A stretch of DNA of 64,000 bases from Kaistia dalseonensis (GTDB lineage: Bacteria > Pseudomonadota > Alphaproteobacteria > Rhizobiales > Kaistiaceae), in the NCBI RefSeq assembly GCF_030814715.1, contig NZ_JAUSVO010000006.1, positions 186,001 to 250,000 of the forward strand. Reading direction: 5' to 3'. Each line of letters begins with the position of its first letter. Position 1 is the stretch's first letter. Under the pieces are notes generated by a model that was not told the origin of the DNA, made no database searches, and was given only the letters and a program-made list of their open reading frames with translations. The translations under genes and the position numbers were made by a program. This document shows, in pieces, positions 8,816 through 19,204 of the stretch.

Positions 8816-9151
8816 TTAGGGCACCAAGCCGAGCAACGGAGCCAGTCGGGCACGGACATCGGCCATGAATGAATCCGGCACACGCTCCAGAAACCCGAAC
8901 AAGCGCGACTCGTTGTGGACGAAGCGGATCTGGTCGATCAGCACGACGCCGCGCGTCAGCAGATGGTCCGGCAAGGGCAGGTTCCAGTTCCAGTCGCCAC
9001 GTGTAGTGCTGACCGGGCAAACGATCGAGCGGCCGGCTGCGATATTGTAGGCGAGCGGCGTCAGGATCAGCGCCGGGCGGCGGCCGGATCGCTCGGTTCC
9101 ACGGTTCGGGCTGAACTCGGCCCAGACGAGATCACCGGCGTCGTGCGGCAT
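8816..9151 (-). CDS. mazF: MazF/PemK-type endoribonuclease toxin
   Basis: The protein has about 111 residues and the PemK fold signature: the N-terminal GDLVWAEFSP, then RSGRRPALILTP, then VCPVSTT and the DQIRFV segment. MazF toxins cut mRNA at short sequence motifs and stop translation. The reading frame overlaps the 3' end of mazE by about 20 bp, so the pair is translationally coupled. I start it at the ATG at 9151; a GTG one codon upstream is also possible. Confidence 0.92.
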   Translation of the reverse strand: MPHDAGDLVWAEFSPNRGTERSGRRPALILTPLAYNIAAGRSIVCPVSTTRGDWNWNLPLPDHLLTRGVVLIDQIRFVHNESRLFGFLERVPDSFMADVRARLAPLLGLVP

Positions 9152-9455
9152 CACGCCCGCTCACAATGTCATCGTAAGTGATCTCGCCGCGCGCATACGC
9201 ATCGTCTGGAAGAGCTTCACCGCCGCGATCCGCCCCCCACTCGATAAGATCGGGCGGACCCTCGGGCCCGGCTGGGCCTGTGCCGTCAAGCAGTTCCTCA
9301 AGCGTGTAGCGCCGCGTCACGGGCCGGAATTCCAGGATCCCGCCCCGCGTCTCGACATCGAGTTCCTGTCCGTCGGATAAGCCCGCTTGATCGACAATGT
9401 CCTTGGGAATGCGAACGGCAACACTGTTGCCCCATTTCGCGACCTTGACACGCAT
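9132..9455 (-). CDS. mazE: MazE-type antitoxin
   Basis: The N-terminus MRVKVAKWGNSVAVRIPK is a typical AbrB/MazE swapped-hairpin DNA-binding domain. The acidic, flexible C-terminus should wrap the toxin. The start at 9455 is fixed by a GAGGAGG site 7 bp upstream; a longer frame starting at 9509 would run through the inverted repeat at 9463-9501. MazE proteins usually repress their own operon with MazF as co-repressor. Confidence 0.92.
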   Translation of the reverse strand: MRVKVAKWGNSVAVRIPKDIVDQAGLSDGQELDVETRGGILEFRPVTRRYTLEELLDGTGPAGPEGPPDLIEWGADRGGEALPDDAYARGEITYDDIVSGRDAARRR

Positions 9456-9462
9456 GACAGCC

Positions 9463-9501
9463 TCCTCGCTTCGGATATCCAATGTATATCCGAAGCGAGG
9501 A
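9463..9501. promoter_or_regulatory. 39-bp inverted repeat over the mazE promoter and ribosome binding site
   Basis: Two perfect 16-bp arms (9463-9478 and 9486-9501) flank a 7-bp spacer. On the minus strand a TATACA box lies across the spacer, with TTGAAT 15 bp upstream, so the repeat overlaps a plausible promoter. The arm nearest mazE contains the start of the Shine-Dalgarno sequence. The repeat may be an MazEF operator, an RNA hairpin, or both. It also stands 22 bp after ilvN, but no T-tract follows. Confidence 0.7.
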
Positions 9502-9522
9502 TTATTCAATGTCGATCGACGC

Positions 9523-10062
9523 CTATGTCGCGTCCGGCCCGCGCGTGATCGCCGCGACGCCGGTGCGCGAGACTTCGACGAGGCCGAGCGGCTGCATCAG
9601 CAGGATGAACTGGTCGAGCTTGTCGGTCTTGCCGGTCAGCTCGAACACGAAGCTCTCCGTCGTCGCGTCGATCACGCGGGCGCGGAACGCCTCGGCGAGC
9701 CTGAGCGCCTCGCTGCGCAATTCGCCCGCGCCGCGCACCTTGATCAGCAGCAATTCGCGCTCGATCGCCTTGCCCGTCACGGTCAGGTCCATGACGCGGT
9801 GCACCGGCACCATGCGCTCGAGCTGCGCCTTGATCTGCTCGATCACCTGCGGCGAGCCGGTGGTGACGACGGTGATGCGCGAGCGATGCTTCTCGTGCTC
9901 GGTCTCCGAGACGGTCAGGCTCTCAATATTGTAGCCGCGGCCGGAGAACAGGCCGATGACGCGGGCTAGAACGCCCGGTTCGTTGTCGACGAGCACCGAG
10001 AGCGTATGGGTCTCGGTGGCGTCCTTGCCTTCCTTGATCGCATAGACGGATCCAGGCTGCAT
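9523..10062 (-). CDS. ilvN: Acetolactate synthase small (regulatory) subunit
   Basis: The 179-residue protein has an N-terminal ACT domain (HTLSVLVDNEPGVLARVIGLFSGRGYNIESLTV, residues about 18-52) and the conserved C-terminal IlvN/IlvH half (ERELLLIKVRG, then FVFELTG). It binds branched-chain amino acids and confers feedback inhibition on IlvB. It lies 33 bp after ilvB on the same strand, in one operon. Confidence 0.97.
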   Translation of the reverse strand: MQPGSVYAIKEGKDATETHTLSVLVDNEPGVLARVIGLFSGRGYNIESLTVSETEHEKHRSRITVVTTGSPQVIEQIKAQLERMVPVHRVMDLTVTGKAIERELLLIKVRGAGELRSEALRLAEAFRARVIDATTESFVFELTGKTDKLDQFILLMQPLGLVEVSRTGVAAITRGPDAT

Positions 10063-10095
10063 GATGGTCTCTCCGTGTGTTCTTGTTCTGTCGGT

Positions 10096-11880
10096 TCAGA
10101 CCAGCGCCGCGCCGGCCTTGTCGATCGCGTTGGCGATCGCCTCGTCGGTCGCGTCTTCCGGCAGCAGCATCTCGTTATGCGCCTTGCCCGAGGGGATCAT
10201 CGGGAAGCAGTTGGCGAGGTTGGCGACGCGGCAATCGAACAGCACCGGCCCCTTCGCCGCGATCATCGCGTCGATCGCGTCGTCGAGCTCGGATGCCTTC
10301 TCGCAGCGCATGCCGATCGCGCCATAGGCCTCGGCGAGCTTCACGAAATCCGGCAGCGCATCGGTATAGGAATGCGACAGGCGATTGCCGTGCAGCAATT
10401 GCTGCCACTGGCGCACCATGCCCATATACTGGTTGTTCAGGATGAACACCTTGACCGGCAGTTCGTGCTGGATCGCCGTCGACATCTCCTGAATGTTCAT
10501 GAGGATCGACGCGTCGCCCGCAATATCGATGACCAGCGCGTCGCGATGCGCCGTCTGCGCACCGATCGCCGCCGGCAGGCCATAGCCCATCGTGCCGAGC
10601 CCGCCCGAGGTCATCCAGCGGTTCGGCTCATCGAAATGGAAATGCTGGGCGGCCCACATCTGGTGCTGGCCGACCTCGGTGGTGATGAAGGTCTGCCGGC
10701 CCGTCGCCTTCTCGAGCGCCTTCGTCTTCTCATAGAGCCGCTCGATCGCATATTGCGGCATGATCGTCTCGCTGGTCTGGCGATAGGCGAGGCTCTTGCG
10801 CGTCCGCCAGCGGTCGATCTCGCCCCACCAGTTCTTCAGCGCCGCCTGGTCGAGCTTGTGGCCCGCCGCCTTCCAGACCGCCAGCATCTCGGAGAGCACA
10901 TGGGCGACATCGCCGATGATGCCGAGATCGACGCGGACATTCTTGTTGACCGAGGACGGGTCGATATCGACCTGGATCTTCTTCGACCCCGGCGAAAACG
11001 CGTCGAGCCGGCCGGTGATGCGGTCGTCGAAGCGCGCGCCGATCGCGATCATGACGTCGCAATCATGCATCGCATTATTGGCCTCATAGGTGCCGTGCAT
11101 GCCCAGCATGCCGAGCCACTGCTTGTCGGAGGCCGGATAGGCGCCGAGACCCATCAGCGTCGAGGTGATCGGAATGCCCGTCAGGCGCACGAATTCGCGC
11201 AAGAGCGCCGCGGCTTCCGGCCCCGAATTGATGACGCCGCCGCCGGTATAGAAGATCGGCTTCTTCGCGCCCGCGATCAGCTCGACCGCCGCCTTGATCT
11301 TCGCCGGATCGCCCTCGACCTGCGGATGATAGGTCTTGTGCTCGACGCGGGCCGGGCCCTGATAGGTGCCGGTCGCGAACTGCACATCCTTCGGAATATC
11401 GACGACGACCGGCCCCGGACGGCCGGAGCGGGCGACATAGAACGCCTCGTGCAGGACGCGGCCGAGATCGTTCACGTCCTTGACCAGCCAGTTATGCTTG
11501 GTGCAGGGCCGCGTGATGCCGACCGTATCGGCCTCCTGGAAAGCGTCGGAGCCGATCAGATGCGTCGCGACCTGGCCGGTGATGCAGACCATGGGGATCG
11601 AATCCATCAGCGCGTCGGTCAGCGGCGTGACCATATTGGTAGCACCCGGCCCCGAGGTGACGAGCGCGACGCCGACCTTGCCGGTCGAGCGCGCATAGCC
11701 CTCCGCCGCATGCCCCGCCCCGCCTTCCTGGCGGACGAGGATGTGCTGGACCTTGTCCTGCTGGAAAAGCTCGTCATAGATCGGCAGGACCGCGCCGCCG
11801 GGATAGCCGAAGAGGTGTTCCACGCCCTGGTCGATCAGCGCCTGAACGACCATCTCCGCGCCTGTCATCTGCCGTGCCAT
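10096..11880 (-). CDS. ilvB: Acetolactate synthase large (catalytic) subunit
   Basis: IlvB is a thiamine-diphosphate enzyme that condenses pyruvate with pyruvate or 2-oxobutyrate. Visible marks are the YPGGAVLPIYDEL segment, the catalytic glutamate region VRQEGGAGHAAEGYAR, and the TPP-binding GDASILMN...NNQYMGMV region. I choose the ATG at 11880 (594 residues) because GGAG lies 9-12 bp upstream; an in-frame GTG or ATG further up is less well placed. A leader peptide and attenuator precede it (11945-12048), so expression should respond to charging of branched-chain tRNAs. Confidence 0.97.
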   Translation of the reverse strand: MARQMTGAEMVVQALIDQGVEHLFGYPGGAVLPIYDELFQQDKVQHILVRQEGGAGHAAEGYARSTGKVGVALVTSGPGATNMVTPLTDALMDSIPMVCITGQVATHLIGSDAFQEADTVGITRPCTKHNWLVKDVNDLGRVLHEAFYVARSGRPGPVVVDIPKDVQFATGTYQGPARVEHKTYHPQVEGDPAKIKAAVELIAGAKKPIFYTGGGVINSGPEAAALLREFVRLTGIPITSTLMGLGAYPASDKQWLGMLGMHGTYEANNAMHDCDVMIAIGARFDDRITGRLDAFSPGSKKIQVDIDPSSVNKNVRVDLGIIGDVAHVLSEMLAVWKAAGHKLDQAALKNWWGEIDRWRTRKSLAYRQTSETIMPQYAIERLYEKTKALEKATGRQTFITTEVGQHQMWAAQHFHFDEPNRWMTSGGLGTMGYGLPAAIGAQTAHRDALVIDIAGDASILMNIQEMSTAIQHELPVKVFILNNQYMGMVRQWQQLLHGNRLSHSYTDALPDFVKLAEAYGAIGMRCEKASELDDAIDAMIAAKGPVLFDCRVANLANCFPMIPSGKAHNEMLLPEDATDEAIANAIDKAGAALV

Positions 11881-11944
11881 CTTAATCGCTCCGTGACGGA
11901 CCACCATCGCTCGGTCCGCTTTTCTTCAGTTCCATCAAGCCAAT

Positions 11945-11971
11945 AAAAAAGGCCCTCTCGGGGCCCATTTT
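11945..11971 (-). terminator. Attenuator (intrinsic terminator) of the ilvB leader
   Basis: On the minus strand GGCCC-CGAGA-GGGCC forms a tight stem, flanked by AAAAT before and TTTTTTATT after. It ends about 65 bp before ilvB and about 40 bp after the stop codon of the leader peptide. This is the expected place for a transcription attenuator. Confidence 0.8.
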
Positions 11972-12003
11972 CGCGCACTACCTGTCGTGACGGCTTCAAA
12001 CCA

Positions 12004-12048
12004 TCAGGCAGTGCGCTCCGATACTACAAGAATGCTGAGGCGGATCAT
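12004..12048 (-). CDS. ilv leader peptide MIRLSILVVSERTA
   Basis: The 14-codon frame contains Ile-Leu-Ile-Leu-Val-Val among its first nine residues and ends at TGA. A purine-rich AAGGG stands upstream of the ATG. Downstream, GCGCACTGCCTG, which covers the last codons, can pair with CAGGTAGTGCGC; this is an alternative stem upstream of the terminator. Together they form a classical branched-chain attenuation leader: stalling at Ile, Leu or Val codons would free alternative pairing and allow readthrough into ilvB. The mechanism is known for ilv operons of proteobacteria. Its use here is inferred from the layout. Confidence 0.8.
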   Translation of the reverse strand: MIRLSILVVSERTA

Positions 12049-12079
12049 GTCCGGGCCCTTCGAACGAGAAATTTCGCGG

Positions 12080-12108
12080 AACATGGCGCAGGACAAAGCG
12101 GGCGTCAA
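12080..12108 (-). promoter_or_regulatory. Candidate promoter for the ilvB leader
   Basis: On the minus strand TTGACG (12103-12108) is followed after 17 bp by CATGTT (12080-12085). The -35 box is good and the -10 box is weak. Transcription would start about 25 bp before the leader-peptide ATG. Confidence 0.45.
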
Positions 12109-12199
12109 GAGGGGCAGGAAGAAAGTTGCGCGGGAGGGGTGTGGAGGGAAAGGAAATTAGGGGGTAGCCCGCAAACGATCAGCTACCAGTGATTGCAGT

Positions 12200-12264
12200 T
12201 AGGACACAATAGGACTTGAGTGCCAGAGTGATTTCCACCCTTATCGGTCCTAGTCTAGCTCAAA
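12200..12264. other. Repeat-rich 5' flank of the reverse transcriptase gene
   Basis: TAGGAC occurs at 12200 and 12210, and its complement GTCCTA at 12247-12252. TTGAG (12216) and CTCAA (12260) add a second pairing. The region could fold into a structured RNA just before the reverse transcriptase start. Some defence-associated reverse transcriptases need such a non-coding RNA. No RNA family is recognised here. Confidence 0.25.
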
Positions 12265-12283
12265 CTCGCAGGCGGCCTCGGCA

Positions 12284-13939
12284 ATGACTAAATTCATCGG
12301 CAGTGACCCCAACATTTTCGCTGAGAAAATGCTTGATTCAGGCTTTTTTCCCGAGAATTTGCCGCCTGTTTTCAAGATTGAAAACTTGCATGAAGCAGCA
12401 ATTGGAGCGCTCTCAACCAACCATTACTTAACCGATAAACCAACGGAAGGTGCCCGATACAATGCTTCAAAGAGGAACGGTCAACGACGTATATTCACAA
12501 TGCCTAATCCCGTATTTATGGTCGACTGCTCTATATTCTTTAGTGAATATTCCAGCCAAATCGATGAGCATTTGTCATTGTCCGCCGATGGACCCTCAAA
12601 CCCGTTGTTCAACGACGGCGCGGGTCGACCAATAAAAATAAATAGCCATCCAGAATTCCATAGAAGACGCCGAAAGGATCTTGCCCTTTCCAGATACGTG
12701 GTAAAGACAGACATATCTCGTTTCTTTCATTCTATTTATACGCACTCGATATCGTGGGCGTTGCACGGAAAAACAGATGCAAAAAAGGACCGCCGCGACA
12801 GTTCTGAAACGGTGTTTGGTAACCGTCTAGACAAGATTGTACGCCAGTCGCAAGACGGACAAACAATCGGAATTCCAGTTGGACCAGATTTCTCACGATT
12901 AATATCTGAAATAATTGGAGTATCCATAGATCATCGATTCAGAATTGATAACGGAGGAAACATCCCACTATTAAGGCTGGTTGACGACATATATATCGGT
13001 GCAGATAATTTGGATGACGCTAACAGTTACTTGAGCTCTATCAGGGACTCTATTCGCCAGTTTGAACTGGATATTAATGAGTCGAAAACTACCATACTCG
13101 AGTCCAGCGACGATCTGGAGCCATTCTGGCCCGTAGAAATTCGACGAGAGATCCAGACATTTTCCGCGGATGATATTACCAACAATCGTCAGAGCCGAGC
13201 AGACTTTGTTCATTTCATGGACGAAATTCTTCGAGCTGCAAAAATTAGAAATGATGAGGGCATTGTTAAATTTGCCCTTAGGAAGATTGATGACTTTAAC
13301 ATATGGAACATATATTGGGATTTACTTGAGCCTTTTCTAATAAGATCGGCAATCAGCTTTCCGCACTGCTGGGACTATGTTGCGAGAGTCGTCGCATGGC
13401 GGCAGCGGAAGCACGGCGTTGATTCGGACTTGTGGCGACAAGTTGCCGAAAAGTCGATCGCGCGTAGCGCCCGTTCGGGAAACGATTCAGAAGTAATATG
13501 GGCTCTTTGGATGCTCAAAGAGCTTGGCCAGGCGATATCACTCAGCTTGGTCGAGTCAATAATAAAACGCTGCGGGCCATTCGTCGTCTTATTATGCTTA
13601 GATGTCCACCAATCGTCTGCTTCTACCTACAACTTTCCCAAAGATATTTTGCTTGATCGCATTGGCGAACGACCGATGTTGGGGAGTAATTGGATATTAT
13701 CTTACGAGGCGGATCGTCAATTTGGATTTCGGCTTAAATCAAAGAATTTGCAAGGGAGCGATTTCTTCCAGTCTATGTACGACAATAACACATCATTCTA
13801 TGATCGCAGTGCTGACCCGGTTGTTTTTGAGAATGATGTCACGGGAACTTCCGCCAAAAATGCAATCGAAAAAGGCATAGGCGACTATGATGATTATTTT
13901 GATGATGAACCTGACGGCAAAGAAGATGATGAGTTCTAA
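12284..13939 (+). CDS. Reverse transcriptase of the defence-associated (UG/Abi-like) type
   Basis: This 551-residue protein carries the reverse transcriptase core. Motif A is KTDISRFFHSIYTHSI (residues about 141-156, catalytic Asp143). Motif B is TIGIPVGPDFSRLISEI (about 194-210). Motif C is RLVDDIYIG (about 231-239, Asp234 and Asp235). It lacks the intron maturase and the Cas1 partner. After the core come some 220 mostly helical residues (about 300-520) and a very acidic tail. This plan matches single-gene DRT and abortive-infection reverse transcriptases, which use a helical repeat C-domain. The coding sequence is strikingly AT-rich against its surroundings, so it was acquired recently. The exact UG class is not determined. 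Confidence 0.85.
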   Translation: MTKFIGSDPNIFAEKMLDSGFFPENLPPVFKIENLHEAAIGALSTNHYLTDKPTEGARYNASKRNGQRRIFTMPNPVFMVDCSIFFSEYSSQIDEHLSLSADGPSNPLFNDGAGRPIKINSHPEFHRRRRKDLALSRYVVKTDISRFFHSIYTHSISWALHGKTDAKKDRRDSSETVFGNRLDKIVRQSQDGQTIGIPVGPDFSRLISEIIGVSIDHRFRIDNGGNIPLLRLVDDIYIGADNLDDANSYLSSIRDSIRQFELDINESKTTILESSDDLEPFWPVEIRREIQTFSADDITNNRQSRADFVHFMDEILRAAKIRNDEGIVKFALRKIDDFNIWNIYWDLLEPFLIRSAISFPHCWDYVARVVAWRQRKHGVDSDLWRQVAEKSIARSARSGNDSEVIWALWMLKELGQAISLSLVESIIKRCGPFVVLLCLDVHQSSASTYNFPKDILLDRIGERPMLGSNWILSYEADRQFGFRLKSKNLQGSDFFQSMYDNNTSFYDRSADPVVFENDVTGTSAKNAIEKGIGDYDDYFDDEPDGKEDDEF

Positions 13940-14333
13940 ATTCATCTGCATTCTATAAATAGTCGCGGCCAGCCAGGATTTTCTTTCGGTCGTTCGTGCG
14001 CGCCCGCATCCCCAAGAGGGTCGTAGATGGTCGGGACCAGCCGACTATGACAACGGCGCGGGGTGAGGCGCAGGCTGTCCTTGGATGGCGTTGGCTATTC
14101 GTTGAGGAGCGAGGCTTATCCCGGTCAGGCCGTCCGCTCGCAGGTCAGGCTCACCTTTCGGCTGGCTCCTCCCTTCGACACACCACACCGGCCGTCATGG
14201 CCGCACTTGTTGCGGCCATCCACGTCTTGCTTTGGTAAGTCGGAGCATGCCCATGGCCAGCCATAAAGGCGTGGATGGCCGGGACGAGCCCGGCCATGAC
14301 GGCTGCGTGGCGTGAGTCGCCAGCAGCGCCCTG
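13940..14333. other. Intergenic stretch after the reverse transcriptase
   Basis: About 390 bp carry no credible gene. Composition returns to high GC at about 13970. The second half holds a REP-like element (14191-14303). No integrase, att-like repeat or transposase is seen. Confidence 0.5.
14191..14303. repeat. REP/BIME-like element (GCCGTCATGGCCG family)
   Basis: The outer arms are inverted: GCCGTCATGGCCG at the left and CGGCCATGACGGC at the right. Each arm contains a smaller hairpin followed by CATCCACG or its complement CGTGGATG. It belongs to the same family as 14788-14897 and 15347-15457. Confidence 0.75.
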
Positions 14334-14624
14334 CTACCAATTCAATTGCTCGTAGAGATCATCCCATTCGGGGTTCTGCTCGTGGATCAGCCGGACCTTC
14401 CAGGCGCGCGGCCAATGCTTCATCGTGCGCTCGCGCTGGATCGCCGCGGCGATATTGTCGTGCACCTCGACCCAGACCAGTCGCTTCAAGCCATAGCGCT
14501 CCGTGAAGCTCCCAATCACCAATCCCTCGCGATGCTCGAAGGCACGCCGTGCGATATCGTTCGTCACGCCGAGATAGAGCGTTCCGTTCTTCTTGTCCGT
14601 CATGATGTAGACGTAAGCGGCCAT
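14334..14624 (-). CDS. GIY-YIG nuclease-superfamily protein (UPF0213/YhbQ-like)
   Basis: This 96-residue single-domain protein has the GIY-YIG signature, here AYVYIMTDKKNGTLYLGVTND, with the conserved arginine in ARRAFEHR and the glutamate in AIQRERTMKHW. I start it at the ATG at 14624; a longer frame up to 14816 reads through repeat DNA. Such stand-alone GIY-YIG proteins are common in this order and have no established role. It is embedded in a cluster of REP-like elements, and a decayed half element (about 14673-14712) lies directly upstream. Confidence 0.85.
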   Translation of the reverse strand: MAAYVYIMTDKKNGTLYLGVTNDIARRAFEHREGLVIGSFTERYGLKRLVWVEVHDNIAAAIQRERTMKHWPRAWKVRLIHEQNPEWDDLYEQLNW

Positions 14625-14787
14625 ATGTCGAGCACAACGCAACCTCGGGCCGTCGTCAATGGGTTTTGGGGCGGCAAGCCCGGCGTGGGACGAGCCCTGC
14701 CATGACGGCGTCTGGCTATGAACCAAAGCCTCGTTTGGACTATCGTCCCAGGGCGGACGGGATTGCCACCAACAATTGTCATCCACC

Positions 14788-14897
14788 GCCGTCATGCCCG
14801 CATTCATTGCGGGCATCCACGTCTTGCTTTTGGCCGTGGTGCGCCAGGGCGGGTGTCAGAAAGGCGTGGATGGCCGGGACAGGCCCGGCCATGACGG
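14788..14897. repeat. REP/BIME-like element (GCCGTCATGCCCG family)
   Basis: The left 38 bp and the right 37 bp are identical to those of the element at 15347-15457. Only the central segment differs. The arms are inverted and the outer ends read GCCGTCATG and CATGACGG. Confidence 0.8.
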
Positions 14898-14926
14898 TTT
14901 TGATGAACCGCCCAACCCGACCTCAG

Positions 14927-15043
14927 GCCGTCATCCCGGGCGGAGCGCAGCGGAGACCCGGGACCCATTCAGCCGTGATGCCGGGTGCCTGTCATTCCCA
15001 ATGCTCCGGCTGGATGGGTCCCCGCTTTCGCGGGGATGACGGC
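14927..15043. repeat. REP/BIME-like element (CCGTCATCCCGGG family)
   Basis: The element runs from GCCGTCATCCCGGG to GGGGATGACGGC, with internal hairpins such as CCCCGCTTTCGCGGGG. It resembles the elements at 3905 and 49350. Confidence 0.75.
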
Positions 15044-15120
15044 ACTGGAAAGAGGGTGATGGCGCTAGAGAGGGGCCGCGCTGGCGTCGATATGACAGCA
15101 GAAGCGGCAGGACGGCATGG

Positions 15121-15314
15121 CTCCGCTTAACCCGCCCCTTGCGGGCGGGTCGAAAACGCCCTTGCGTTTTCGGGGCGGGGTTAGCCTTGGCGAAGCCGAG
15201 GCGTTCTTGCTTTCGGTGCGTTCTGAAGAGCCGGTATCCGGCCCCCGCAACCCGACCCCGCCCCAAAACCGCCTCGCGGTTTTGACCCGCCCGCAAGGGG
15301 CGGGTTAAGCGGAG
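15121..15314. repeat. 194-bp foldback element with nested hairpins
   Basis: The two ends are near-perfect inverted arms of about 38 bp: CTCCGCTTAACCCGCCCC at the left and GGGGCGGGTTAAGCGGAG at the right. Inside are further hairpins such as GAAAACGCCCTTGCGTTTTC. A second inverted pair (GGGGCGGGGTT and AACCCGACCCCGCCCC) lies further in. It has the look of a MITE or large palindromic extragenic element. An open frame of 63 codons through it is not a gene. Confidence 0.75.
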
Positions 15315-15346
15315 TGTGGGGGCGTCATGGGCAGTCCAGCATCAAA

Positions 15347-15457
15347 GCCGTCATGCCCGCATTCATTGCGGGCATCCACGTCTTCCTTTCGTCCGTGGTG
15401 CGCCTGAGCAGGTAACAGCAAGGCGTGGATGGCCGGGACAGGCCCGGCCATGACGGC
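15347..15457. repeat. REP/BIME-like element (GCCGTCATGCCCG family)
   Basis: This is a near-copy of 14788-14897 with identical outer thirds and a diverged centre. Its spacing of about 560 bp from the other copy offers a site for recombination that would delete the foldback element. Confidence 0.8.
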
Positions 15458-16390
15458 GTTGGGTTGCCGGAGGCGAGTTTGTCGGCGACGGCTGGAGTTG
15501 CGCATTGGCAGCAGGCCATTCCTATCGAGAAGGAGCGCCGCACTCTTCGCTTGGCGTCGATAGGAATAATTTCCTTGACATGTCCCTCCCCTTTCCGGCA
15601 TGCTCCCTCCATCCCGTGACGCGCCGGGGGCGGGCCTGGATCCGGTCCTTGCCTGATGCGTCCAAAGGGAGCGGCGCGTGCAGGCGGGGGAAACCGGTCC
15701 TTCGTCTCCGCGAGGCCTGCGATCATGCCAGCGGACACTATGATCCGTCGTGAGCGGCACCCATCGTGCCGCGCACCAGGGTTGGAGATCGGTCCGTTCC
15801 TCCGCCGCGATCAACCCCGGTCAGGAGGACGGACGTCCGAGTGCCTTCGCGCAGCGCGCGTCGAGCCGTCTCCCTCCCGCCAGGGCCGATCGGAGGACAG
15901 AAATCGCCGCGGCGGATGCGCGACGAGCGCCATATACGGAACTAACCCCAAGCGGTGCTTCTCGCGCATCCGCCTCCCCCCGGCCATCGCCGGCCCTGCC
16001 CCGCCGAGCACGAACCCGGGCGATCCGCCACGGGATCGCGCAACCGCGCCGCGACGCGAGAATGCCGACCGAGCCACCCGACCAGACCATCCGGCCATGA
16101 CATCCAGCCCCCCCCTAAACCCAGCCATGAAGCCTGCCCAACCATGACGCCCCGCCATGCACCCCTCGCCATCACGCCGGAGGATGACGCGGCGACGCCG
16201 ATCGCGGCGGCTGTCATGGCGTTGGGGCGCAGAGCAGCGCTATCCCGGCCGGGCCATGAAGGGGGCGCGGCCGCGGCGACATGGGATGGCGACGCCATGC
16301 GCGATGGGCTCGCGTCGGCGCATCGGAATGATCGCTTCTTCAAACGCAATGTTCTAGGCTGCCGGCAGGATATCCCCCCGGTACGCCTGA
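15458..16390. other. Gene-free stretch before the diguanylate cyclase
   Basis: About 930 bp show no recognisable coding region; several long frames are typical shadows of high-GC DNA. The only clear structure is an 11-bp inverted repeat (ATTCCTATCGA at 15518-15528, TCGATAGGAAT at 15557-15567). On the minus strand a strong GGGGAGGG stands before a 19-codon frame near 15585, but nothing else supports that frame. Confidence 0.45.
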
Positions 16391-17557
16391 ATGACCTTCG
16401 TCGATCCACCGACCCTCTTCGTCGTACTCGTCGTTACGATGATGGCGACGTCCATCCTGCTCTTCGGCTCGTGGCTGCAGATTCGCCGCGACCGCACGCT
16501 GCTCTGGCTCGGCCTCAGCTATGCGCTCGGCGCGACCGGCTGCCTGATGTATGCCGGTCGCGGCATCATCCCCGATTTCGTCTCGATCGACCTCGCCTCG
16601 GCGATCAATCTCTTCGGCTTCGGGCTCTGCTGGGTCGCGGCGCGCGTCTTCGACGGCCGGCCCGCCCGGCTCTGGCCGCCGCTCGCCGGCGCGGCGCTCT
16701 GGCTGCTGCTCTGCCGCTTTCCGGTGATCCAGGAGACCTTTTCCTATCGCGTCGTCGGCATTTCCCTCGTCATCGGCTTCTGGACGATCGCCGCGGCGCG
16801 CGAGTTCTGGGGCCATGACGGGCTCAAGGCGCGCTATGCGCTGGCGATCGTCTTCGCCGTGCACGGGCTCATCGTGCTCTTGCGCATTCCCGTCGCGCTG
16901 GTCGATGTCCCGACGCTCGACGCCCCGTTCGGAACGCGCTGGTTCGGCCTGATGGCGCTCGAATCGATCGTCTTCACCCAGGTCGTCGGCTTTCTCGCCG
17001 TGGCGCTGACCAAGCAGCGCGTCGAGGCACAGCTGCGCGAGGCGGCGCTGCGCGATTCACTGACGGGCCTCGCCAATCGCCGCGCCCTGTTCGAGCAGGG
17101 CGCCGCCATCCTCGGCGGGCGCGCGCGGCGGCAGCCCGTCGCGGTGCTCACCTTCGATCTCGACCGCTTCAAACAGGTCAACGATCTCTATGGCCATCCG
17201 GTCGGCGATGCGGCGCTGCGCGCCTTCGCCGATGCGGCGAGGGCCTCGCTCCGGCCGGATGATCATGTCGGGCGGATCGGCGGCGAGGAATTCGCGGTGA
17301 TCATGGAGCAGGTCGGCGAGGCGGAGGCGCGCGCCGTGGCGGAGCGGATCATGACCGCCTTCACCGAGCGCGCCAAGGCGATAGACGGGCTCGAGGCCGG
17401 CTGCACCACCTCGGTCGGCATCGCCGTCTCGCCCGATGGGCGCGGCTCGATCCAGCAATGGCTGGCGCTCGCCGATGCCGCGCTCTACGAGGCGAAGCGC
17501 GAGGGCGGCAACCGCCTCTGCGTGGCGGAGGCGGGCGCACTAGCCGTCGCCGCCTGA
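16391..17557 (+). CDS. Membrane-bound diguanylate cyclase (GGDEF)
   Basis: The N-terminal ~215 residues hold six or so hydrophobic segments. The C-terminal GGDEF domain (residues about 225-380) makes cyclic di-GMP from two GTP. The active site reads GGEEF. Five residues before it is an intact RxxD inhibitory site (RPDD), so product inhibition is expected. LRDSLTGLANRR marks the domain start. No EAL domain is present. The signal it senses is unknown. It is convergent with the opgG/D-type gene, with a hairpin between them. Confidence 0.93.
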   Translation: MTFVDPPTLFVVLVVTMMATSILLFGSWLQIRRDRTLLWLGLSYALGATGCLMYAGRGIIPDFVSIDLASAINLFGFGLCWVAARVFDGRPARLWPPLAGAALWLLLCRFPVIQETFSYRVVGISLVIGFWTIAAAREFWGHDGLKARYALAIVFAVHGLIVLLRIPVALVDVPTLDAPFGTRWFGLMALESIVFTQVVGFLAVALTKQRVEAQLREAALRDSLTGLANRRALFEQGAAILGGRARRQPVAVLTFDLDRFKQVNDLYGHPVGDAALRAFADAARASLRPDDHVGRIGGEEFAVIMEQVGEAEARAVAERIMTAFTERAKAIDGLEAGCTTSVGIAVSPDGRGSIQQWLALADAALYEAKREGGNRLCVAEAGALAVAA

Positions 17558-17568
17558 GGCAGCGTTTT

Positions 17569-17592
17569 CGGGCCCTCCGCAGGGAGAGCCCG
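17569..17592. terminator. Hairpin between convergent genes, possible terminator
   Basis: CGGGC and GCCCG arms enclose a CTCC/GGAG inner stem. There is TTTT before it on plus, and AAAAC after it on minus. No true T-tract follows on either strand, so termination activity is uncertain. Confidence 0.35.
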
Positions 17593-17623
17593 ATTCACCG
17601 TTTGACCCGAAAGGCGGAACGCG

Positions 17624-19204
17624 TCAGCTGTTCCCCCAATTGGGGAAATACTGGTAGAGCCAGGTTTCGGTCACGGCCGCGCCGGTCTTGTCGCGCACGA
17701 AGAGGCGCATATCGAGCGGGTCGGAGCCGGTAACGATCGTGTCGAAGAAGGCGCGGTAGAGGCCCGGCCGGCCGACCACCGGATAGGCATCGGCGAGGCT
17801 GACCGCGCCGCGCGACAGGCTGACCTCGGGCTTCGCGTCGCCGCGCACCAGCGCGTCGACCTTGGGCCCGCGGAAATCGACGACGAAGCGGACGGCGCCC
17901 GGCGGGCGGGGCTGGCCGGGAATGCCGCCGACACCGACATAGCTCGACACCACGCGGCCGAGATCCGACGGATAAGGCTCGTCCTCGACCCAGAACAGCC
18001 GATAGGAGAGCTCGATCGTGTCGCCCGGCTGCGCCTGCTTCTCCGGCACCCAGTAGACGACGATATTGTCGTCGATCTCGGTGTTGGTCGGCAGTTCCAC
18101 GAGCTGGACCTGGCCCTTGCCCCATTTGCCCTTGGGCTCGACCCAGATGCTCGGCCGGCGGTCGTAGAACACGCCGTCATCCTGGTAATGGTCGAAATCG
18201 CGATCGCGCTGCAGCAGGCCGAAGCCGCGAATATCGGCATCGAGGAAGGAATTGGTCATGACGCGCGGGGGATCGTTGAGCGGGCGCCAGATGCGCTCGC
18301 CATTGCCGGACCAGATCGCGAGGCCGTCGGAATCGTGGATTTCCGGCCGCCAGTCGATCGCGGTGCGGCGCACGGTCTCCGAATACCAGTACATTGAGGT
18401 GAGCGGCGCGATGCCGAGGCGCCCGATCGGCTTCCTCGGATAGAGCACGCTGTCGATATCCATCACGACCTCTTTGGTCTTGACGCAATCGATCCTGTAC
18501 GCGCCCGTCACGCTCGGGCTGTCGAGAAGGGCATAGACGATGACGCGGCCTTCCTGGCCCAGCACGCGCTCCAGCCAGAAAGCTGAGAAGCGCGGGAATT
18601 CCTCGGCGGTCGGCATGGCCGTATCGATGGCGAGACCGCGCGCGGAGGGTCCGTATTGGTCGAGCGGGCCGGAGGAGCGGAAATAGGACGCGCCGAGAAA
18701 GGCAAGCCAGTCGGTCTTCTGCGACGGCGCCTCGACGCGGAAGCCGGAGAAGCCGATATCGTCGGGCAGTTGGTGCGCCGGATGGCCGGGCGGCATGTCG
18801 AAATAGGTCTGCCGGTAGAGGATCTCGCGCGCCTTGCCATTCTCGACGGCATAGATCTGGCAGGGCTCCTGGAAATACTTGCCGAGATGGAAGAGCTGGA
18901 TCGGATTGCCGCCCTTATTGTCGGCCCAGAGCGCATCGGCCTTGCGGAAGGCGATGCTCTGGAAATTGTCGTAGTCGATCTTGTCGAGGATCGCGCCATA
19001 GGGCGAACGGCCGCTGACCCAGGGTTTCTTCGCATTCGCCTCGGCGAGCGCCTTCAGATCGTCGAAGGAGAACGGCGCGGCAGGGCCGAAGACGAGGCCG
19101 GGATCGGCCTCCGCCGCGGCTGCCGGCCCCATGCCCGAAAGGGCACCGGCGGCAATGGCGGAGAGCATTGTGAGCAGGGTATCGCGGCGGTTGGGATGAA
19201 CCAT
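17624..19204 (-). CDS. Periplasmic glucan biosynthesis protein (OpgG/OpgD family)
   Basis: The 526-residue protein belongs to the MdoG/OpgG family, which shapes osmoregulated periplasmic glucans. The N-terminus carries a twin-arginine signal (HPNRRDTLLTMLSAIAAG), as in OpgD-type members, so it is exported folded. The family body starts at about residue 40 (FSFDDLKALAEANAKKPW). I use the ATG at 19204; an upstream TTG has no support. No opgH glucosyltransferase lies beside it, so backbone synthesis must be encoded elsewhere. Confidence 0.9.
   Translation of the reverse strand: MVHPNRRDTLLTMLSAIAAGALSGMGPAAAAEADPGLVFGPAAPFSFDDLKALAEANAKKPWVSGRSPYGAILDKIDYDNFQSIAFRKADALWADNKGGNPIQLFHLGKYFQEPCQIYAVENGKAREILYRQTYFDMPPGHPAHQLPDDIGFSGFRVEAPSQKTDWLAFLGASYFRSSGPLDQYGPSARGLAIDTAMPTAEEFPRFSAFWLERVLGQEGRVIVYALLDSPSVTGAYRIDCVKTKEVVMDIDSVLYPRKPIGRLGIAPLTSMYWYSETVRRTAIDWRPEIHDSDGLAIWSGNGERIWRPLNDPPRVMTNSFLDADIRGFGLLQRDRDFDHYQDDGVFYDRRPSIWVEPKGKWGKGQVQLVELPTNTEIDDNIVVYWVPEKQAQPGDTIELSYRLFWVEDEPYPSDLGRVVSSYVGVGGIPGQPRPPGAVRFVVDFRGPKVDALVRGDAKPEVSLSRGAVSLADAYPVVGRPGLYRAFFDTIVTGSDPLDMRLFVRDKTGAAVTETWLYQYFPNWGNS

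Follow-up and report, generated by a model that had tools for sequence, protein, structure and literature searches.

A single-gene DRT6 (UG12) reverse transcriptase with an acidic, phenylalanine-ending tail in Kaistia dalseonensis

Introduction

An AT-rich reverse transcriptase gene of Kaistia dalseonensis raises the question of which kind of enzyme it encodes, and whether it represents a new class among the reverse transcriptases of phage defence. The gene lies in the window, by which is meant the whole stretch of 64,000 nucleotides that was analysed (contig NZ_JAUSVO010000006.1, positions 186,001 to 250,000, forward strand). The original prediction, made from the sequence alone, described a single-gene reverse transcriptase of the UG/Abi type, probably a new variant of no known UG class, with a helical C-terminal domain and an acidic tail that might be unusual. 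The present work describes the gene, its family, its fold and its tail, together with its foreign composition, its absence from the corresponding sites of sister genomes and the lack of a recognisable partner. The reading to which this leads, held here at a probability of about 80%, is that of a DRT6 (UG12) anti-phage system made up of one gene and acquired horizontally, which would stop the infected cell by template-free, protein-primed synthesis of single-stranded DNA (ssDNA).

Sequence sets

The relatives of the window protein were obtained by a contig scan with alignment A1; a scan with the single window protein gave 40 pattern-matching stretches, none of which was confirmed as a relative. 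Counts of tails refer to a set of 81 sequences, composed of the window protein, L003, L005 and L006, 74 loci from the best 80 of 376 matching, and L137, L138 and L141, which are three of 26 loci from a further scan, the rest being mostly short matches to the reverse transcriptase core. Six of the 83 sequences extracted were left out as shorter than 500 aa or containing X (L060, L073, L105, L110, L113 and L135); L004 (identical to L068) and L010 (internal stop) were also excluded. The outgroup (L007, L008, L009, L019 and L020) was separated before the tails were counted, and 11 distant rows stand in the 92-row tree outside the 81-sequence set. Of four loci found later, L163 and L165 carry the tails of L061 and L074, while L164 and L166 have new tails. 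The background comprises 490 ORFs of at least 200 aa, the longest non-overlapping ones from loci L050 and up and from the window, and includes near-duplicates and some other reverse transcriptase genes. PADLOC scans of single relatives cover nine proteins, among them L019, which is not part of the 81.

Gene and catalytic core

The reading frame begins with ATG and runs uninterrupted for 551 aa. Its main features, in window coordinates, are as follows.

12284 to 13939, + strand: complete gene of a DRT6 (UG12) reverse transcriptase, 551 aa (ORF; PADLOC Drt6, E 3.1e-154; Foldseek 9wy8)
12710 to 12712, + strand: codon of catalytic Asp143 in motif A, KTDISRFFHSIYTHS (invariant in 55/55 of alignment A2)
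12983 to 12988, + strand: codons of catalytic Asp234-Asp235 in LVDDIYIG (invariant in 55/55 of alignment A2)
13127 to 13783, + strand: alpha-helical domain, residues 282-500 (helices in model mfa9b18d052f7)

The core motifs named in the original prediction are all present in this ORF: Asp143, Asp234 and Asp235, each found in every one of the 55 sequences of alignment A2, and GIPVGPDFSR as motif B. The Pfam RVT_1 profile matches the protein at E 6e-11, and in the whole assembly (5.18 Mb) this gene is the sole RVT_1 match at E 0.001. The gene is thus genuine and intact.

Class and fold

Among the PADLOC profiles, Drt6 is the best for the window protein, with 512.6 bits (E 3.1e-154) over residues 13-534 and profile positions 4-497 of 511. 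We take PDLC03748 to be the UG12 model and PDLC03752 the UG15 model. The next scores come from two models labelled Drt4, PDLC02179 (376.3 bits) and PDLC02177 (364.3 bits), which are also the best models for the relatives L103 and L098; since the segment of the solved DRT6 structure (9wy8) likewise prefers such a model, the window protein might be viewed as a DRT4 (UG15) protein instead. This appears very improbable. The Drt6 model leads by 136 bits for the window protein, the UG15-type Drt4 model PDLC03752 reaches 219.9 bits (UG30, 213.6 bits), the NCBIfam Drt4 profile gives 194.4 bits and stays below its cut-off of 450, and the nearest solved fold is that of DRT6.

The two labels themselves deserve a remark. 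The 9wy8 segment scores 724.6 bits with its best model, which carries the Drt4 label, 601.1 with Drt6 and 253.8 with PDLC03752; put side by side, PDLC02177 and PDLC02179 give it 507 and 725 bits against 254 for PDLC03752. Because the solved DRT6 segment obtains its top score from one of the two, both seem to cover DRT6-like proteins, and, judged by these sequence scores, their Drt4 labels may be wrong.

The predicted fold agrees with the assignment. The AlphaFold2 model built from 55 sequences (mfa9b18d052f7; modelled as a monomer) has a pLDDT of 92.4 and a pTM of 0.91, and its helices from residue 282 to 500 bear out the helical C-terminal domain that had been expected. The top Foldseek match is 9wy8_A, entitled 'Cryo-EM structure of the hexameric DRT6' (TM 0.83/0.92, rmsd 2.6, 511 columns), whose sequence also matches the window protein at E 9.1e-64. 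The next folds are UG15/DRT4 (TM 0.74-0.75) and AbiK (0.57-0.64), followed by Abi-P2 and by group II intron reverse transcriptases (0.38-0.39), while the match to a DGR reverse transcriptase covers the core, with a TM of 0.34.

A placement among group II intron maturases, retrons or DGR reverse transcriptases is a further alternative. In its favour stands a weak shared reverse transcriptase core, with 36.6 bits for the group II profile and 32.3 bits for retron St85; these scores are far under the respective cut-offs of 300 and 235, no Rfam family matches between 9000 and 17000, and the entire chain, including the helical C-domain, fits the DRT6, DRT4 and AbiK folds. The probability of such an identity is practically negligible, and an origin from a group II intron or retron is ruled out by the profile scores and the structure comparison.

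A quick 92-row tree joins the window protein to reverse transcriptases from Pelagibius, Mesorhizobium and Sulfitobacter (SH-aLRT 98), that of Pelagibius being 63% identical to it. Its clade consists of 18 rows (SH-aLRT 96), the named ones from Alphaproteobacteria; the long-branch warnings of the tree concern no row of this clade, and the named row L005 adjoins it. The profile search and the tree, both proposed along with the original prediction, hence assign the protein to Drt6 and give it named relatives, and they yield no new class: a new UG class is ruled out by the PADLOC profiles and the fold match. The window gene is a member of the known class DRT6/UG12, and an ordinary one for its family.

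Genomic surroundings

The coding sequence has a GC content of 44.1%, compared to 64.2 and 65.9% in the 2 kb flanks, in line with the AT-richness first noticed. The comparison of this site with sister genomes defines a larger unit.

12165 to 17640, no strand: segment with no homologous counterpart here in any of 12 sister flanks (blastn, E 1e-8; both edges in 9/12)

There are 13 other genomes of the genus, and flanks were taken from 12 of them, G750 being fragmentary and without a full match. Upstream of the reverse transcriptase lies a divergent gene on the - strand (10096-11907), which we take to encode acetolactate synthase, and just upstream of it homology ends in all 12 flanks, between 12054 and 12164. 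Homology to 12165-17640 is absent from all 12 sister stretches of 6.2-6.3 kb (blastn, E 1e-8), and it resumes at about 17640 or 19416 in nine of them, the second edge being unseen in three; in L046 about 160 bases separate the two flanks. One sister genome (G371) has a reverse transcriptase homologue of 40% identity on a different contig. The gene is sparse at wider ranges, since the Drt6 profile matched just 7/398 genomes of a phylum draw (at 1e-20) and 6/385 of a class draw (at 1e-60), own genome counted in both. A search of 397 genomes at the level of the order found 16 with a match at 1e-10 or better, again counting the own genome, and six of these matched over the reverse transcriptase core alone. 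The window gene thus looks foreign and horizontally acquired.

The segment contains, besides the reverse transcriptase, a GIY-YIG ORF (14337-14816, - strand), intergenic repeats and a GGDEF diguanylate cyclase gene (16391-17554, + strand), and both of these genes share its absence from the site in sister genomes. The repeats, downstream of the reverse transcriptase at 14191-15461, are palindromic; two copies of 115 nt are 90% identical, and a third has pieces of 41-46 nt in common with them.

A gene of this origin could be a decayed or silent passenger of the island, devoid of present function. Its foreign base composition and the missing counterpart at sister sites would suit a passenger, as would promoter-like matches at chance level (five found, against a mean of 3.5 in shuffles). 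Decay, however, is difficult to reconcile with 551 open codons, intact catalytic residues and tail motif, and 63% identity to the Pelagibius enzyme, and we regard this explanation as improbable.

As to partners, the original prediction had noted that no maturase, Cas1, primase or msr/msd accompanies the gene. In agreement with this, Rfam at gathering threshold gives no match within 9000-17000, and neither of the two downstream ORFs (GIY-YIG and GGDEF) matches a PADLOC family. The coding DNA of the window aligns with its three nearest relatives at 65-66%. When the 500 bases upstream and the 500 bases downstream of the gene were compared among the window and 15 relatives, no common sequence appeared beyond near pairs and short repeats, flank sharing being limited to the near pairs (L065, L069 and L072) and downstream repeats of 32-60 bases. 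A noncoding RNA partner was set aside on these grounds, although a fast-changing RNA could escape such searches. The organisation is therefore that of a single gene with no recognisable protein or RNA partner, a fast-changing RNA still being conceivable. Profile, structure and the absence of a partner together support a single-gene defence enzyme of the UG/Abi type, and the unconserved flanks and missing Rfam match agree with the description of DRT4 and DRT6 as single-gene systems in the accessible part of PMC13213688.

Five neighbourhoods of relatives, chosen rather than sampled, were viewed (L050, L057, L058, L059 and L136), and in three of them defence genes are found near the reverse transcriptase. 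In L058 (4080-7075) a SPARTA-like pair of TIR-APAZ and short Argonaute directly follows the UG12 gene; in L136 (1988-3832) a HerA-like ATPase (PADLOC HerA, 2.5e-167) stands directly upstream of it; and in L050 (2401-8727; sister genome G371) a type IIG, MmeI-like restriction enzyme lies near it, with a serine resolvase adjoining the reverse transcriptase. The two proteins beside the reverse transcriptase of L057 match no PADLOC family.

Proposed mechanism

Published accounts, mostly reviews in the case of DRT4 and DRT6, provide a model for what the enzyme may do. As far as the excerpts of these sources go, DRT4 produces random ssDNA without a template from a Tyr primer, and the phage protein ORF55 protects the 3' end of the product (PMC13213688, PMC13314766); DRT6 is a single-gene system, related to DRT4 and activated by ORF55 (PMC13213688), and the chemistry of its product is termed 'less resolved' or 'not yet fully characterized' (PMC13213688, PMC13314766). 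From the portions seen of the primary work, AbiK is a hexamer which primes from Y44 in its fingers loop (PMC9508834), and host ExoI digests the DNA made by DRT9 until this is shielded by an end-binding protein of the phage (PMC12483538). By analogy, DRT6 enzymes probably make toxic ssDNA during phage attack, and, because of its family membership, the same mechanism is the best guess for the window protein.

Accordingly worded from the published DRT4, DRT6, DRT9 and AbiK systems, the sequence of events would be the following. The window protein would assemble as a hexamer and synthesise ssDNA without a nucleic-acid template, primed by a residue of the enzyme itself, while host 3' exonucleases would limit its amount. 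Upon infection, an ORF55-like phage protein that binds DNA ends may cover the 3' end, whereby ssDNA would accumulate and lead to growth arrest or cell death before phage release. The own genome has no match to ExoI (Pfam PF08411; the E. coli control was positive), and the silencing role that ExoI has for DRT9 in E. coli must therefore fall to another nuclease here.

Acidic tail

The end of the protein carries two further features.

13862 to 13894, + strand: linear tail motif AIEKGIGDYDD, whose Tyr535 (codon 13886-13888) is a possible protein primer (clade motif, Tyr column)
13883 to 13936, + strand: tail, acidic and disordered, with Phe551 as its last residue, DYDDYFDDEPDGKEDDEF; possible mimic of the SSB tip (pLDDT, tail statistics)

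The acidic tail that was first noted is present, with a pLDDT under 50 at 534-537 and 539-551 in the AlphaFold2 model. The suggestion that it may be unusual does not stand for the family, as 46 of the 81 aligned sequences (window counted) have acidic last 20 residues, with a net charge of -5 or lower, and the solved DRT6 chain also enters an acidic stretch. The more distinctive property is its last residue. An aromatic residue ends 48/81 sequences (F 25, Y 21, W 2), compared to 23/490 background ORFs, and a terminal F is found in 25/81 versus 9/490. Collapsing the set at 50% identity to 41 clusters leaves 9.9 for F and 23.2 for aromatics, far above background (p ~5e-8 and 2e-20). None of the five DRT6-like outgroup sequences ends in an aromatic residue, and all have a penultimate Tyr, so that the count is 48/86 with the outgroup and 50/92 over all tree rows. 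In the window's clade 14/18 end in F and 5/18 in PF, an ending which occurs in only 9/81. The terminal aromatic is a labile trait, with 22 or more changes counted on the quick tree.

Several of these endings resemble the tip of SSB, the single-strand DNA-binding protein of the cell, such as DDDDDDDLPF (L137), YDDLPF (L126), DEDDPF (L064) and DEDQPF (L065); the SSB of the own host (L167) ends in DLDDDIPF. The tip of the window protein, KEDDEF, is a partial match, since it has no Pro. According to the passages available, SSB partners including ExoI and RecO bind the SSB tip (PMC10018359, PMC10143822). This raises the hypothesis, a tentative one which we hold to be rather unlikely as a whole, that the C-terminus of this clade's DRT6 mimics the SSB tip and thereby recruits or starves nucleases and helicases that are partners of SSB, the tail Tyr serving as primer. 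The acidic, Phe-ending tail, often with DDxPF, would then borrow the cell's code for 'single-stranded DNA here'. The tip would link the DNA output of the enzyme to the ssDNA machinery of host and phage, and interference by the phage with this machinery may trigger the system. Since AlphaFold leaves the tail disordered, both the SSB mimic and the tail primer are unproven.

The tail may alternatively act within its own molecule, as a mimic of ssDNA or a solubility tail which fills the product channel as long as no DNA is made. This is a real possibility, though less likely than not: an acid-rich, disordered tail would suit an enzyme that probably produces ssDNA, and of the 35/81 sequences without an acidic tail 21 nonetheless have an aromatic last residue, Tyr in 15 cases, which the SSB mimic leaves unexplained. 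Acidity alone, in turn, does not account for the terminal Phe, which ends 19/46 acidic-tailed sequences of the set and 1/21 acidic-tailed neighbouring ORFs. The one ORF among these 21 is the HerA-like ATPase upstream of the L136 reverse transcriptase (...DIDDEIPF), which is also the sole background ORF combining an acidic tail with PF.

The C-terminus of that ATPase, NPQFDGDIDDEIPF, itself resembles an SSB tip.

Among the matches listed by a literature search of partial coverage, neither a DRT6 tail nor an SSB-like tip of a DRT was found, nor, within the same partial coverage, was 'DRT6' together with 'C-terminal'. Within that coverage, the tail pattern of aromatic end, SSB-like tips and tail Tyr looks new. 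If the SSB-tip hypothesis is true, DRT6 gains a concrete control element, consisting of a short peptide and a single Tyr, and the tail would suggest how a synthase of random ssDNA stays harmless in a host which lacks ExoI.

Primer candidates

Beyond residue 505 the tails vary from 19 to 143 residues in length, and a Tyr recurs in them. The motif A[IL]E-x4-6-Y-[DEG], which was written after the tails had been seen, occurs in 18/18 sequences of the window's clade (window counted) and in 0/63 elsewhere; of the two later-found tails, both acidic and Phe-ending, that of L164 has the motif and that of L166 lacks it. Position 535 of the window protein is Tyr in 69/81 sequences, in a column that depends on how MAFFT aligned these variable tails, and it is one of only four columns with Tyr in at least 60/81 (148, 152, 474 and 535). 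A tail Tyr of any kind is seen in 72/81, a modest excess over the roughly 60 expected from composition, and is missing in nine.

The other place to look is the AbiK-type loop. The window protein has Y48 and Y59 there; column 59 is Y in 31, F in 28 and H in 19 of the 81, and the loop (46-69) has no Tyr in 22/81, because of which a loop Tyr is doubtful as the family-wide primer. In the sections at hand of the respective reports, DRT9 primes at its C-terminal Y496/Y498 (PMC12483538) and DRT10 at S456 or Y444, also C-terminal (PMC12632851). Given the conservation of the tail Tyr, the variable loop Tyr and the C-terminal priming of DRT9 and DRT10, Y535 may be rated, by analogy, as no more than a fair candidate primer. 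The docking of a Tyr at the active site is without support, since the AlphaFold2 tails are disordered both in the window protein and in L112, a relative whose short tail ends in Tyr (pLDDT below 50 for residues 511-527). The one Drt4-like relative encountered, L021, scores 419 bits, which is likewise under the Drt4 cut-off; its chain stops five residues past the aligned Phe505 and is thus tailless; a tail primer would therefore not be common to DRT4.

The outgroup sequences L007, L008, L009, L019 and L020 form a separate DRT6-like clade, in which the Drt6 profile gives 416 bits for L019 and 407 bits for L020. The C-termini of the five read ENYG, ENYE, ENYD or HNYD, endings that closely resemble the priming peptide of DRT9 (NYDYE).

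Comparison with known systems

The window gene is one more well-placed member of DRT6, a family for which the PDB copy used here contains a single solved structure and on whose mechanism little has been published. Among the known systems, DRT9 and DRT10 are alike in their C-terminal priming residues, which, as described in the excerpts of these reports, resemble the tail Tyr of the window protein; yet both use an ncRNA template (PMC12483538, PMC12632851), and the DRT9 fold is far from the window model (TM 0.32-0.34). AbiK (7r06, 7r07) shares the reverse transcriptase and helical domain (TM 0.57-0.64), and the published enzyme makes Tyr-primed ssDNA template-free, according to the part of PMC9508834 consulted; its type of priming loop, however, lacks Tyr in the 22/81 window-family sequences mentioned above.

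DRT4 (UG15; 9vdo, 9l9s) has the overall fold in common (TM 0.74-0.75) and is likewise a single gene, as stated in the accessible text of PMC13213688, whereas the window protein remains under the NCBIfam Drt4 cut-off. The closest likeness is to the DRT6 of 9wy8, which shares the reverse transcriptase and helical domain, the full-length fold and an acidic C-terminal stretch, yet is 29% identical to the window protein in the structural alignment; the AIExxxxxYD tail motif belongs to the window's clade.
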